DNA of 64,000 nt from assembly GCF_013283745.1 (NCBI RefSeq), contig NZ_JABSTZ010000001.1:1010406-1074405 (forward strand), in the 5' to 3' direction. Positions 5,517 through 9,915 of this stretch are shown here, in pieces. Made by a program: the position numbers and the translations under genes. The notes below the pieces were generated by a model, which saw nothing but the letters and a program-made list of their open reading frames with translations, was not told where the DNA came from and did not search any database. This DNA comes from Aeromicrobium stalagmiti (GTDB taxonomy: Bacteria; Actinomycetota; Actinomycetes; Propionibacteriales; Nocardioidaceae). Within the stretch, counting starts at the first letter, position 1, and every line of letters starts with the position of its first letter.

Positions 5517-6871
5517 GCACGATCGACCGGTCACGGCTGGAGGAGCTGCTCGTCCGCGAGCGGGCGCTGTTCGCCGAGCGCAACCCCGCGTCGGCGCGCC
5601 TCTACGCCGCGGCGACCCACCTGTTCGGGCGGGTGCCGATGACGTGGATGAACAAGAACGCCGCGGGCTTCCCGCTCTACGTCGACCGGGCGCGGGGCAA
5701 CCGCGTCTGGGACGTCGACGGTCACGAGTACATCGACTTCGCGCTCGGCGACACCGGGGCGATGGGTGGTCACTCGCCGCAGCCGACGCTCGACGCCGTC
5801 ACGCACCGCATGAGCGGGCTGGGGGGCCTGACCACGATGCTGCCGACCGCGGACGCCGAGTGGGTCGGGGCCGAGCTGACCCGTCGCTTCGGGCTGGGCC
5901 GCTGGAGCTTCTCCCTCACCGCGACCGATGCCAACCGCTGGGCCATCCGGCTGGTGCGGGCGCTGACGGGTCGACCCAAGATCCTGGTCAACGCCTACTG
6001 CTACCACGGCAGCGTCGACGAGTCGCTGATCGTCGTCGGCCCCGACGGCGAGGGCATGATGCGTCCGGGCAACGTCGGCGCGCCGGTCGACGTCACCGAG
6101 ACCAGCCGCGTCGCGGAGTTCAACGACCTCGCGGCGCTGGAGCGTCAGCTCGCCCACGGCGACGTCGCCGCGGTGCTGATGGAGCCGGCGCTGACCAACA
6201 TCGGCATCGTGCTGCCGGAGGAGGGCTATCTCGCGGGCGTCCGTGAGCTCTGCACCCGTACGGGCACGCTCCTGATCATCGACGAGACCCACACCTTCTC
6301 CGCCGGTCCCGGCGGGGCCACGGCCCTGTGGGGGCTCGAGCCCGACGTGCTGGTGATCGGCAAGGCGATCGGCGGCGGCATCCCGTGCGGCGCCTACGGC
6401 CTGTCCGACGCGCTCGCCGAGATGGCCGAGGGGCGTACCGACCTCGACCTCGTCGACATGGGCGGTGTCGGCGGGACGCTCGCCGGCAACCCCGTGTCGG
6501 TCGCGGCCATGCGGGCTACGCTCGAGAACGTGCTCACCGACGAGGCGTTCGAGGTCATGGTGCAGACCGCCACGGCCTTCACCGACGGGGTCCAGGCGGC
6601 GATCGACCGCCACGACCTGCCATGGTCGGTGAGCCAGCTCGGCGCACGCACGGAGTACCGCTTCGCGTCGCCGGCTCCGCGCAACGGCACCGAGTCGGCC
6701 GCCGCCCAGGACGACGACCTCGAGGACTATCTCCACGTGTTCCTCGCCAATCGCGGCATCCTGCTGACCCCGTTCCACAACATGGCGCTGATGTCGCCCG
6801 TGACGTCGATCGCCGACGTCGAGCGCCACCACGAGGTCTTTGCCGAAGCCCTCGCCGACCTGCTTGCCTGA
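5513..6871 (+). CDS. Class III PLP-dependent aminotransferase
   Basis: An aminotransferase of 452 aa. The PLP lysine is K284 in VIGKAIGGG and the cofactor-ring aspartate is D257 in IIDETHTFSAG. The fold is that of ornithine/GABA/glutamate-1-semialdehyde aminotransferases. It has an insert after residue 100 and a TATDANRW segment where many relatives have SGTEA, so its substrate may differ from textbook GABA transaminases. A GGAG site precedes the start. Placed directly after a polyamine-type importer and before an aldehyde dehydrogenase, it probably deaminates the imported amine or amino acid to an aldehyde. Confidence 0.88.
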   Translation: MSTIDRSRLEELLVRERALFAERNPASARLYAAATHLFGRVPMTWMNKNAAGFPLYVDRARGNRVWDVDGHEYIDFALGDTGAMGGHSPQPTLDAVTHRMSGLGGLTTMLPTADAEWVGAELTRRFGLGRWSFSLTATDANRWAIRLVRALTGRPKILVNAYCYHGSVDESLIVVGPDGEGMMRPGNVGAPVDVTETSRVAEFNDLAALERQLAHGDVAAVLMEPALTNIGIVLPEEGYLAGVRELCTRTGTLLIIDETHTFSAGPGGATALWGLEPDVLVIGKAIGGGIPCGAYGLSDALAEMAEGRTDLDLVDMGGVGGTLAGNPVSVAAMRATLENVLTDEAFEVMVQTATAFTDGVQAAIDRHDLPWSVSQLGARTEYRFASPAPRNGTESAAAQDDDLEDYLHVFLANRGILLTPFHNMALMSPVTSIADVERHHEVFAEALADLLA

Positions 6872-6896
6872 CCCCGCCACGACCACGAGGAGAACC

Positions 6897-8249
6897 ATGA
6901 CCAGCCCCACGTACCAGGTGACCGACCCGTCGACCGGCGAGGTCGTCGAGTCCTTCGAGCACGCGACCGATGCCGAGATCGAGTCGGCGTTGGCGGCGTC
7001 GGCCGGGGCGTACTCGGCGTGGAAGGACGTGCCGATCGCCGAGCGCGCCGTCGTCGTCAAGCGGGTTGCTGCCCTGTTCGCCGAGCGGGCCGACGAGCTC
7101 GCGGCGATCGCGACCCGGGAGATGGGCAAGCCTCTCGGCGAGGGGGTCGAGGAGGCCGAGTTCTGCCAGGCGATCTTCGACTACTTCGCCGACGAGGGTC
7201 CGACGCTGGCCGCCGACCAGGAGATCAAGAGCTTCTCCGGCGGCAAGGCGATCGTCCAGAAGCTGCCCGTGGGGCCGCTGCTCGGGGTCATGCCGTGGAA
7301 CTTCCCGTACTACCAGATCGCCCGGTTCGCGGCGCCCAACCTGATGCTGGGCAACACGATCATCCTCAAGCACGCCGAGTCGGTGCCGCGGTCGGCGCTC
7401 GCGGTCGAGCAGATCATGAAGGACGCCGGCGTGCCCGAGGGCGCCTACGTCAACGTGTTCGCGACGTTCGACCAGATCGAGACGATCATCGCCGACCCGC
7501 GGGTGGCCGGGGTGTCGCTGACGGGGTCGGAGCGGGCCGGGTCGGTGGTCGCCGCGCTGGCGGGCAAGAACCTCAAGAAGTGCGTGCTCGAGCTCGGCGG
7601 GTCCGACCCGATGGTCGTGCTCGACTCCGACGACCTCGACTCCGTGGTCGGTGACGCGTGGGACTTCCGGATGTACAACACGGGTCAGGCCTGCAACTCC
7701 AACAAGCGCATGATCGTCATGGACGACCTGTTCGACGACTTCGTCGCCAAGCTCACCGAGAAGGCCCTGGCGCTCGACACGTTCTCGCCGCTGTCGTCGC
7801 GCAAGGCCGCCGAGACGTTGGCCGAGCAGGTGCAGGACGCCGTCGACAAGGGCGCGACGCTGCATGCCGGCGGTGTGCTCGGCGAGGCCCCGGCGGCGTT
7901 CTACTCCCCGGCGGTGCTGACGGGCATCACCCAGGACATGCGGGCGTACTCCGAGGAGCTGTTCGGCCCCGTCGCGGTCGTCTACTCCGTGGGGTCCGAC
8001 GAGGAGGCGCTCGCGCTCGCCAACGACACGACGTACGGGCTGGGTGGCTCGGTGTTCAGCGCCGACCCGGAGCGGGCGCGGTCGCTGGCCGAGCGGCTCG
8101 AGGTCGGCATGGCCAACGTCAACTCCACGGCCGGTGAGGGTGCGGAGATCCCGTTCGGCGGCGTCAAGCGCTCCGGCTTCGGCCGCGAGCTCGGTCCCCT
8201 CGGCATGGACGAGTTCGTCAACAAGCGCATGTTCTACGTCGCCGACTGA
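6897..8249 (+). CDS. Aldehyde dehydrogenase (succinate-semialdehyde/aminoaldehyde type)
   Basis: A 450-aa NAD(P)-dependent aldehyde dehydrogenase. The cofactor-site sequence is PWNFP at 133-137, the general base E232 is in LELGGSDP, and the nucleophile C266 is in NTGQACNSNK. It is short for the superfamily and resembles the compact Sad/GabD2 type of succinate-semialdehyde dehydrogenases. AGGAGAACC precedes ATG 6897. It would oxidise the aldehyde made by the preceding aminotransferase. Gamma-aminobutyraldehyde and succinate semialdehyde are both plausible substrates, and a second, longer GabD lies just downstream. Confidence 0.88.
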   Translation: MTSPTYQVTDPSTGEVVESFEHATDAEIESALAASAGAYSAWKDVPIAERAVVVKRVAALFAERADELAAIATREMGKPLGEGVEEAEFCQAIFDYFADEGPTLAADQEIKSFSGGKAIVQKLPVGPLLGVMPWNFPYYQIARFAAPNLMLGNTIILKHAESVPRSALAVEQIMKDAGVPEGAYVNVFATFDQIETIIADPRVAGVSLTGSERAGSVVAALAGKNLKKCVLELGGSDPMVVLDSDDLDSVVGDAWDFRMYNTGQACNSNKRMIVMDDLFDDFVAKLTEKALALDTFSPLSSRKAAETLAEQVQDAVDKGATLHAGGVLGEAPAAFYSPAVLTGITQDMRAYSEELFGPVAVVYSVGSDEEALALANDTTYGLGGSVFSADPERARSLAERLEVGMANVNSTAGEGAEIPFGGVKRSGFGRELGPLGMDEFVNKRMFYVAD

Positions 8250-8258
8250 CCCCCTTTT

Positions 8259-8473
8259 CGGTTTACCACGGTCCCTACGCAAATTGAATGGGGCGGACGG
8301 TCCGCCCGAGGTAAACGTCGTCCGCCCGAGGGAGATCTCCCTGGGGCGGACGATGTTTGTGTGGGGGAGACGGTTGACCCGTTCGGTTTGCCCAGGGGAG
8401 ACGGTTGACCCGCTCGGTTTGCCCAGGGGAGACCGTCATCCCGTTCGGTTTGCGTAGGGACCGTGGTAAACCG
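8259..8473. repeat. 215-bp composite repeat element with perfect 25-bp inverted ends
   Basis: The ends 8259-8283 (CGGTTTACCACGGTCCC...) and 8449-8473 are exact reverse complements over 25 bp. Inside are a 17-bp palindrome (8291-8307, GGGCGGAC/GTCCGCCC around one base), a long near-perfect palindrome (8313-8358) and three tandem 31-bp units (8364-8394, 8395-8425, 8426-8456) containing GGTTGACCCG and CGGTTTGC. The last unit merges into the right inverted end. It fills the gap between two convergent genes and codes for nothing recognisable. It could be a MITE-like or REP-like element, or an elaborate bidirectional terminator. Confidence 0.9.
8313..8358. terminator. Large palindrome, possible bidirectional terminator
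   Basis: Two 23-base arms, 8313-8335 and 8336-8358, pair with two mismatches around a central AGATCT. An RNA copy from either strand would form a very stable hairpin. There is no T-run, so classic intrinsic termination is not shown. Its place between convergent operons suits a terminator or a transcription barrier. Confidence 0.45.
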
Positions 8474-8484
8474 TCGCCGGGGGA

Positions 8485-9915
8485 TCAGTCGGGCCAGGCG
8501 ACGCTGAGGTACTGGGTCTCCTGGAACTCCTCCAGGCCGGCGCGGGCGCCTTCACGGCCGATGCCGCTCTGCTTCATGCCGCCGAACGGTGCCGCCGGGT
8601 CGGACACGAGCCCCCGGTTGACGCCGACCATGCCGGCCTCGATCGCCTCGCCGAGGCGCAGGCCGCGCTGGAGCTCGCCGGCATAGACGTACGCCGCGAG
8701 GCCCATCTCGGTGTCGTTGGCGTAGCCGATGACCTCCTCGTCGGTCGTCCACGTGACGATCGGCGCGATGGGGCCGAAGATCTCCTCGTGGACGATCTCG
8801 GCGTCGGCCGGGACGTTGCTGAGCACGGTCGGCGCGAACCAGAAGCCCTTGCTGTCAGCAGGGACGGGAGCCTGGTGAGCGATCCGGGCACCGGCCTCGA
8901 TCGCCCCGGCGAGCAGCGCGTGCGTCGAGTCGACGGCCTTGGCGTTGATGAGGGGCCCGATGTCGGAGCCCTCGGCGGCCGGGCCGACGGTCAGGGCCTC
9001 GACCTTGGCGCCGAGCTTGGCGGTGAACTCCTCGGCGACGTCGGCGTGGACGTACAGCCGGTTGGCCGCCGTGCAGGCCTGACCTCCACCGCGGAACTTC
9101 GCGACCATCGCGCCCTCGACCGCGGCGTCGATGTCGGCGTCCTCGGTGACGATGAAGGGAGCGTTGCCGCCGAGCTCCATCGACGAGTTCACGACGCGGT
9201 CGGCGGCCTGCTTCAGGAGCACCTGACCGATCGCGGTCGAGCCGGTGAACGAGATCTTGCGGACGCGCGCGTCCTCCATCCACGCGCCGACGATCTTGCC
9301 CGCCGACGACGACGGCACGATGTTGACGACGCCCTCGGGCAGCCCGGCCTCGACCATGAGCCTCGCGATGGCGAACGCCGTCAGGGGCGTCTCCGACGCG
9401 GGCTTGAGCACCACGGTGCATCCGGCGGCGAGCGCCGGGGCGATCTTGCGGGCGGCCATGGCGGCCGGGAAGTTCCACGGCGTCACGAGCGCGGCGACAC
9501 CCACGGGGTGGTGGGTGACGAGCGTACGGGTGCCGCCGGCGGGCGCGGAGCCGTAGTCGCCCCCCATGCGGACGCCCTCCTCGGCGAACCAGCGGAAGAA
9601 CTCCGCGGAGTACGTCACCTCGCCCTTGGCGTCGGTCAGGGACTTGCCGTTCTCGGCGGCGATCAGCGCGCCGAGCTCGTCACGGTCGCGGATCATCAGC
9701 TCGAACGTCCGGCGCAAGATCTCGCCGCGCTCGCGCGGGGCGACCCGGCGCCAGCTCTTCAGGGCGGTGGCGGCCGCGTCGACGGCCGCCGTGGCGTCGG
9801 AGACGCCGCCGTTGGACACGGCGCGGATGGCCTCGCCGGTCGAGGGGTCGACGACGTCGAACTCCCCGTCGGCGCCGGGCAGCCAGGCGTTGTTGATGAA
9901 GACGTCAGAGCTCAT
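8485..9915 (-). CDS. gabD: Succinate-semialdehyde dehydrogenase
   Basis: A 476-aa enzyme oxidising succinate semialdehyde to succinate with NAD(P), the last step of GABA catabolism. Visible features: PWNFP at 146-150, the base E247 in MELGGNAPF, the nucleophile C281 in GGQACTAANR, and the C-terminal FGGMKQSGIGREG. Length and sequence match GabD-type dehydrogenases. Its ATG at 9915 overlaps the gabT stop (ATGA), so it is coupled to gabT. It is the second aldehyde dehydrogenase of this locus, and the two may handle successive aldehydes. Confidence 0.93.
   Translation of the reverse strand: MSSDVFINNAWLPGADGEFDVVDPSTGEAIRAVSNGGVSDATAAVDAAATALKSWRRVAPRERGEILRRTFELMIRDRDELGALIAAENGKSLTDAKGEVTYSAEFFRWFAEEGVRMGGDYGSAPAGGTRTLVTHHPVGVAALVTPWNFPAAMAARKIAPALAAGCTVVLKPASETPLTAFAIARLMVEAGLPEGVVNIVPSSSAGKIVGAWMEDARVRKISFTGSTAIGQVLLKQAADRVVNSSMELGGNAPFIVTEDADIDAAVEGAMVAKFRGGGQACTAANRLYVHADVAEEFTAKLGAKVEALTVGPAAEGSDIGPLINAKAVDSTHALLAGAIEAGARIAHQAPVPADSKGFWFAPTVLSNVPADAEIVHEEIFGPIAPIVTWTTDEEVIGYANDTEMGLAAYVYAGELQRGLRLGEAIEAGMVGVNRGLVSDPAAPFGGMKQSGIGREGARAGLEEFQETQYLSVAWPD

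Follow-up and report, generated by a model that had tools for sequence, protein, structure and literature searches.

A dispersed palindromic repeat family of Aeromicrobium and its putative AbiEi/DUF559-like partner gene

In the genome of Aeromicrobium stalagmiti, two convergent aldehyde dehydrogenase genes (PF00171) are separated by a compact element with inverted ends, nested palindromes and short tandem units. What is this element, and how could such a structure have come to lie between the stop codons of ordinary genes? Below, these questions are addressed starting from the window, i.e., the whole 64,000-nucleotide stretch of DNA that was analysed, and proceeding to the remaining genome, the genus (49 genomes) and the bacterial family (341 genomes). 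Genomes are denoted by G numbers (G000 being that of the window), contigs by C numbers and individual loci by L numbers.

Layout, folding and dispersal of the element

The features of the locus are as follows (window coordinates).

6840..8249, + strand: aldehyde dehydrogenase (PF00171), convergent neighbour, stop 9 bp before the element
8259..8473, no strand: whole element with both ends, measuring 213 bp (GG to CC) or 215 bp when the outer C and G are included
8259..8283, + strand: left end, made of the outer portion of box A (GGTTTACCACGGTCCC type); its exact reverse complement is found at 8449..8473
8291..8307, no strand: 17-bp palindrome, which coincides with the region's only terminator-like match (- strand)
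8312..8359, no strand: box B, a palindrome with its centre at 8335/8336
8355..8447, + strand: three 31-bp units (8355-8385, 8386-8416 and 8417-8447)
8449..8473, - strand: right end, made of the outer portion of box A' and exactly complementary, in reverse, to 8259..8283
8485..9915, - strand: aldehyde dehydrogenase (PF00171), convergent neighbour, stop 11 bp after the element

The preliminary description of this DNA had reported perfect 25-bp inverted ends, two central palindromes, three 31-bp tandem units running into the right end and a location at a convergent junction. All these elements of the layout were found again, the third unit meeting the right end and the two stop codons lying as listed. 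The extended 34-nt arms of the element are 91% complementary, and the 39-nt arms of the palindrome centred at 8335/8336 are 77% complementary. RNA folding of 8245-8490 yielded -172.2 kcal/mol as compared with -105.8 kcal/mol (sd 5.0) in 200 shuffles (z -13.2), the other strand of the same interval gave z -10.0, and on each strand none of the 200 shuffles folded as low as the element. The terminator scan of 8200-8540 returned a single match, on the - strand and inside the element (0.2 expected), and the Rfam search over the whole window returned one tRNA and no match at the element. The position between convergent stops fits the suggestion of an antisense-blocking RNA.

The structure was also said to be beyond chance, and the search of the own genome (3.68 Mb in 20 contigs) agrees with the folding in this respect: the 20-bp end, with at most three mismatches allowed, occurs at 18 places, 14 of them exact, and the reversed pattern at none. 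A DNA search with the element retrieved 31 matching pieces. Hence, the end sequence, for which a genome-wide search had been proposed, is not unique; the repeat is present at ten loci, comprising six two-ended elements (119 to 213 bp, the window's included), three one-ended copies (C12:351095, C1:147954 and C1:1248996) and one pair bracketing a gene on C15, in a count that leaves out C14:7622, an end match with three mismatches. Elsewhere in the genome, the window element finds its best match in the flank of the C15 gene (C15:64986-65080, 87% identity). Across the genus, 13 of the 49 genomes contain the 17-bp end when up to one mismatch is allowed. A looser 16-base pattern was found in 17 of the 341 genomes of the bacterial family: 14 of the same genus, two of one other genus, with A-B-type copies, and one apparently by chance. 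The two genomes of the other genus (G350 and G351, L202-L205) harbor related A-B elements with the ends GGTTTACCACGGGCCC, some of them in longer alternating arrays. The exact 17-mer occurred in 23 stretches of named genome contigs, 19 of them in Aeromicrobium assemblies; the other four may be chance. The window element is one gene-free copy of a dispersed palindromic repeat family.

The smallest form of the repeat measures 88 bp and consists of box A (26 bp), box B (36 bp) and box A' (26 bp). Elements of 88, 118-120, 151, 172-173 and 213 bp were seen; most of these lengths match steps of 31 bp, and 172-173 bp do not. Box A is often palindromic in itself in G018, G005, G052 and G042; in the window's species, the inner half of box A is altered and its complement sits in A'. 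In an alignment of 39 elements of 88 bp (A2; L127 and L149 excluded), pairing along the whole length held in 86.4% of cells, as against 80.8% under a model of three separate hairpins, and it dropped to 37-49% when the partners were slid by one to three columns. Cells changed on both sides numbered 152 versus 75.6 in shuffles, a covariation which is no proof of selection on RNA, since template-switch correction of palindromes can yield the same pattern. Columns 1-2 and 5-12 show no variation among the 39 elements, partly by construction, because the copies were found via their ends.

The bracketed gene and its flanks

The gene-bearing pair of the own genome has the layout A-B, gene, B-A' and lies between acpS and a TetR-like gene (neighbours named by eye).

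G000:C15:63901-64875, - strand: AbiEi_4 + DUF559-like gene, 326 aa, between inverted A-B copies

Such copies bracket the same type of gene next to acpS in G013, in G047 and, with a more diverged box, in G043; beside the same TetR-like gene in G062; between tuf and the rpsJ region in G052; and at another place in G018. In the gene-bearing units read, the ends enclose no known transposase gene but one for an AbiEi/DUF559-like nuclease. On reading L093, no gene for an AbiEii toxin was noticed between acpS and the next gene. Hairpins with TTGAGCTTGTCGAAAGGGG or CCTGAGCCTGTCGAAGGGG follow the aldehyde dehydrogenase and acpS genes at L173 (G062) and L308 (G010); they look like another common repeat type.

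The C15-type protein contains an AbiEi_4 domain (PF13338, E 9.3e-9); this domain is detected in 8/10 members of the profile A1, and the AbiEi profiles of PADLOC match 10/10. Comparison of A1 with nine DUF559 proteins by hhalign gave a probability of 99.3% (E 1.5e-20), and the Pfam model of DUF559 did not match the A1 proteins. The DUF559-like domain is taken as a PD-(D/E)XK-type nuclease. Of 13 residues inspected in the nuclease half, nine are invariant in 47/47 proteins (E205, D238, E249, D251, K255, E273, K274, R276 and E277). They presumably form the catalytic site of the nuclease, and their conservation is as expected of what would be a working enzyme. Searches of PDB sequences with A1, of NCBIfam with two proteins and of a plasmid collection with the own-genome protein (tblastn) returned no match; an AlphaFold model of the L089 protein, built without an alignment, was set aside (mean pLDDT 31.6).

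A profile of the subfamily, built from ten such proteins, detected it in 36 of the 49 genomes; 24 of the 36 have a single such gene, and the own genome likewise has one. Of the 50 rows listed, 47 were scored for inverted flanks by reverse-complementing the right flank and aligning it to the left one; two pieces of a split G040 gene and a contig-end fragment of G015 were dropped. Inverted similar flanks were found in 47/47 genes, with scores of 17.5-71.5, whereas 56 acpS and aldehyde dehydrogenase genes taken as a control scored 10.8 on average and 15.5 at most. In 400 random windows drawn from the loci, some of which probably contain elements, the 95th and 99th percentiles were 15.5 and 28.1 and the maximum was 69.0. 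Mis-paired flanks (543 pairs) had a mean of 13.4, 95th and 99th percentiles of 19.4 and 59.0 and a maximum of 180.5; 46/47 genes lie above the former percentile and 9/47 above the latter, the few above the 99th being due to the mixing of related loci into this control, and therefore other genes were taken as the control. Most of the flank alignments span boxes A and B; L332, L335 and L349 are among those with A alone. A strict palindrome scan found at least two centres in 17/94 gene flanks versus 0/94 coding control stretches, and 8 of the 21 spacings were 30-31 bp. In the wider DUF559 group (L261-L290, 14 genomes), inverted hairpin-like flanks of other sequence are often present: with a heuristic choice of ORF, the score was at least 18.5 in 19 of the 29 loci scored out of 30 (L286 omitted).

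The boxes vary by lineage around a common look, G-TTT-CC ... GG-AAA-C, and G052 possesses three genes with three different boxes. Box classes mostly track the protein clades, and protein identity correlates with flank similarity (Spearman 0.47 over 1075 pairs; 0/500 permutations as high), an agreement that could stem from linked inheritance alone. The window's box also belongs to the gene of G018, which in a tree with unresolved forks is placed away from the other genes with that box.

In six box families, the window's included, the box of the gene recurs without the gene. The box that brackets the genes of G003 and G040 matched 63 pieces of G003 and 14 of G040, and among these 14 one falls within the neighbouring gene; the box of G046 and G048 is gene-free at the acpS junction, the gene being elsewhere. 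For three of the six families, the gene-free boxes come from blind 400-kb samples of G005 and G060, the boxes being known beforehand only from gene flanks. In the G005 sample, the first box of this genome had 22 matches versus 2 for the reversed control; 12 of the 22 make up six palindromes at two loci, at one of which four A boxes form an array with a spacing of 61-62 bp, and chance apparently accounts for the remaining 10. The second box yielded one palindrome (control 0), and the G060 and G003 boxes yielded 0 matches. In the G060 sample, the own box had 7 matches at three loci (control 0), and the other four boxes had 1, 2 (control 1), 0 and 1, apparently by chance. A second dispersed family of the same A-B-A' layout has the ends GATTCCCAGGAGAACCCC and the central palindrome CCCTGTTGCAACAGGG (L166, L221-L234 in G003 and L235-L239 in G040).

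Taken with the matching flanks and the gene-free boxes, the element probably belongs to dispersed palindromic repeats tied to the AbiEi/DUF559-like gene, repeats and enzyme perhaps forming a mobile system. We infer that the protein may bind, cut and mobilise the repeats. The AbiEi part would bind the A and B palindromes and the nuclease part would cut at or near them, upon which repair or replication would copy A-B-A' units to new places. The step of 31 bp, about three helical turns, would let bound proteins sit on the same face of the helix. Copies would persist best between convergent stop codons, since a hairpin on both strands is proposed to be harmless there or to help stop transcription.

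Sites of the copies and competing readings

At ten places of the own genome (C1:1248996 left out), the distance from the copy to a stop codon is 1-49 bp on one side or on both, and a crude GC3 reading of 60 loci placed convergent neighbours on both sides at 38, on one side at 20 and on neither at 2. The window's junction carries the element in G008, G013 and G056 as well. In G003 it is occupied by another repeat family, namely the one with the GATTCCCAGGAGAACCCC ends, and in G012, G040, G047, G050 and G011 plain hairpins are seen there by eye.

Such placement favours the reading of the elements as two-way terminators or polymerase barriers under selection between convergent genes, the nuclease gene being merely flanked by hairpins and its protein perhaps only regulating itself. 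The strong folding of both strands, the different hairpins at the window's junction in other species and the single terminator-like match on the - strand speak for it too, as does the self-regulation of AbiEi antitoxins through inverted repeats described in the accessible part of PMC7319586. Still, we regard it as unlikely: fixed ends are not needed by a terminator, yet they are common across species (partly by construction); the gene's two flanks resemble each other, a match that 56 other genes lack; and some orthologous junctions have no element and few bases between the stops. Ordinary terminators beside some copies were also considered and dropped, the scans giving 0 at L210 and L136.

Presence and absence can be compared at four junctions that carry an element of the window's type and have an orthologous junction without it in another species (L134/L399, L140/L407, L117/L372 and L158/L388). 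A short palindrome is left at the element-free junction L407. At a further pair (L136/L404), the window's family is present in G018 and the own family of G060 in G060. No target-site duplication was seen by eye in the pairs of filled and empty junctions, the flanks of which have diverged, and no excision product or movement was seen.

Sister species offer a contrast for the proposed tie between repeats and gene. End sites number 17 in G018, which has the gene, and 5 in G042, which lacks it; they number 15 in G052, again with the gene, versus 6 in G005 and 1 in G057, which possess only genes with other boxes. The three loci of G042, the three of G005 and the one of G057 all recur in the richer sister. 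There are two exceptions: no gene was found in G056 (genome 87% complete) despite its 15 end sites, and G047 has the gene and 2 end sites. The tuf-rpsJ region was dropped as a clean empty site; it shows only absence in the sister species, because about 8 kb of other DNA lies there in G005 and G057.

It is also conceivable, if quite improbable, that the nuclease gene is a homing-type passenger inserting into palindromic repeats which exist already and spread otherwise, by gene conversion or by a transposase acting in trans. The gene does lie within repeats at the acpS junction, in the tuf-rpsJ region and at an aldolase junction of G040, several gene lineages are found at the acpS junction, and inverted flanks are frequent in the wider DUF559 group as well. 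However, the box tracks the protein lineage down to three genes with three boxes in one genome, and each of the sampled genomes disperses the box of its own gene, not those of others. A role as an ordinary MITE of a known insertion sequence, with the autonomous copy lost or unassembled, would suit the inverted ends, small size, several copies and presence or absence at orthologous junctions, but is highly improbable, as the gene-bearing units read with these ends carry the AbiEi/DUF559-like gene, neither an IS transposase partner nor a duplicated target site was found in the units and junctions read, and the length varies through the inner units.

Known systems and wider relevance

The nearest known system is REPIN/RAYT, in which, according to the accessible parts of PMC3116915 and PMC3733652, paired short palindromic repeats form hairpins outside genes and one enzyme gene is bracketed by them. 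The Aeromicrobium repeats resemble it in being inverted, hairpin-forming pairs dispersed outside genes, with several families per species group as far as these sources describe, and in bracketing an enzyme gene, here of an unrelated enzyme. They differ in the protein, which is AbiEi/DUF559-like instead of a Y1 tyrosine transposase, and in the A-B-A' layout tending to grow by 31 bp. Hence, the repeats work like REPIN/RAYT but are no member of it, membership being excluded because the Y1 transposase (PF01797) was found in 0/49 genus genomes, as compared with 5/14 control genomes. The earlier suggestion of a MITE-like element or REP-type family comes close in both parts, given the dispersed ends and the differing presence at orthologous junctions; a RAYT-linked REP it is not.

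CGTC-tagged palindromic repeats, reported from Proteobacteria and some other phyla in the accessible text of PMC3733652, are likewise dispersed short palindromes without a dedicated RAYT; they are set apart here by description, not base by base, and the word "Actinobacteria" is absent from that text. The third likeness is to AbiE type IV toxin-antitoxin systems, known members of which recognise 23-bp inverted repeats close to the gene that encodes them: in the accessible part of PMC7319586, AbiEi of S. agalactiae binds two such repeats and Rv2827c of M. tuberculosis four. The protein described here shares the AbiEi_4 domain, but has a nuclease-like second half, and its repeats lie on both sides of the gene and are dispersed. 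In the open-access literature, mostly titles and abstracts, no tie between AbiEi or DUF559 proteins and palindromic repeats was found.

A broader generalisation, for which confidence and doubt are evenly balanced, would make AbiEi/DUF559-like nucleases the enzymes behind a class of bacterial mobile DNA yet to be described: each nuclease lineage would recognise its own palindrome, keep its gene between inverted copies and seed gene-free arrays at the 3' ends of genes throughout its genome. If so, the wider DUF559 group would represent a large pool of systems of this kind. As far as the accessible text of PMC3733652 goes, the tie between short palindromic repeats and one enzyme gene is known from REPIN/RAYT, some families (the CGTC type) being left enzyme-less; a second, unrelated type of enzyme with such repeats, if true, would imply more than one origin of this way of life and would suggest a role for proteins known only by the labels AbiEi and DUF559. 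The sister species with and without the gene allow the link between gene and repeat to be tested.

Two minor observations concern individual sites. The gene beside L017 (G000:C1:147951) faces the element, and in L146 (G052) it is reversed between two inverted copies, as if the segment between the copies had been inverted. The junction before a small gene starting MTNLFGEPPA holds the repeat in G000 (L097, C1:1248996), G013 and G056 (L087 and L076), and in G040 (L238) it holds the nuclease gene in a different repeat family; this junction is a second hot spot beside that at acpS.
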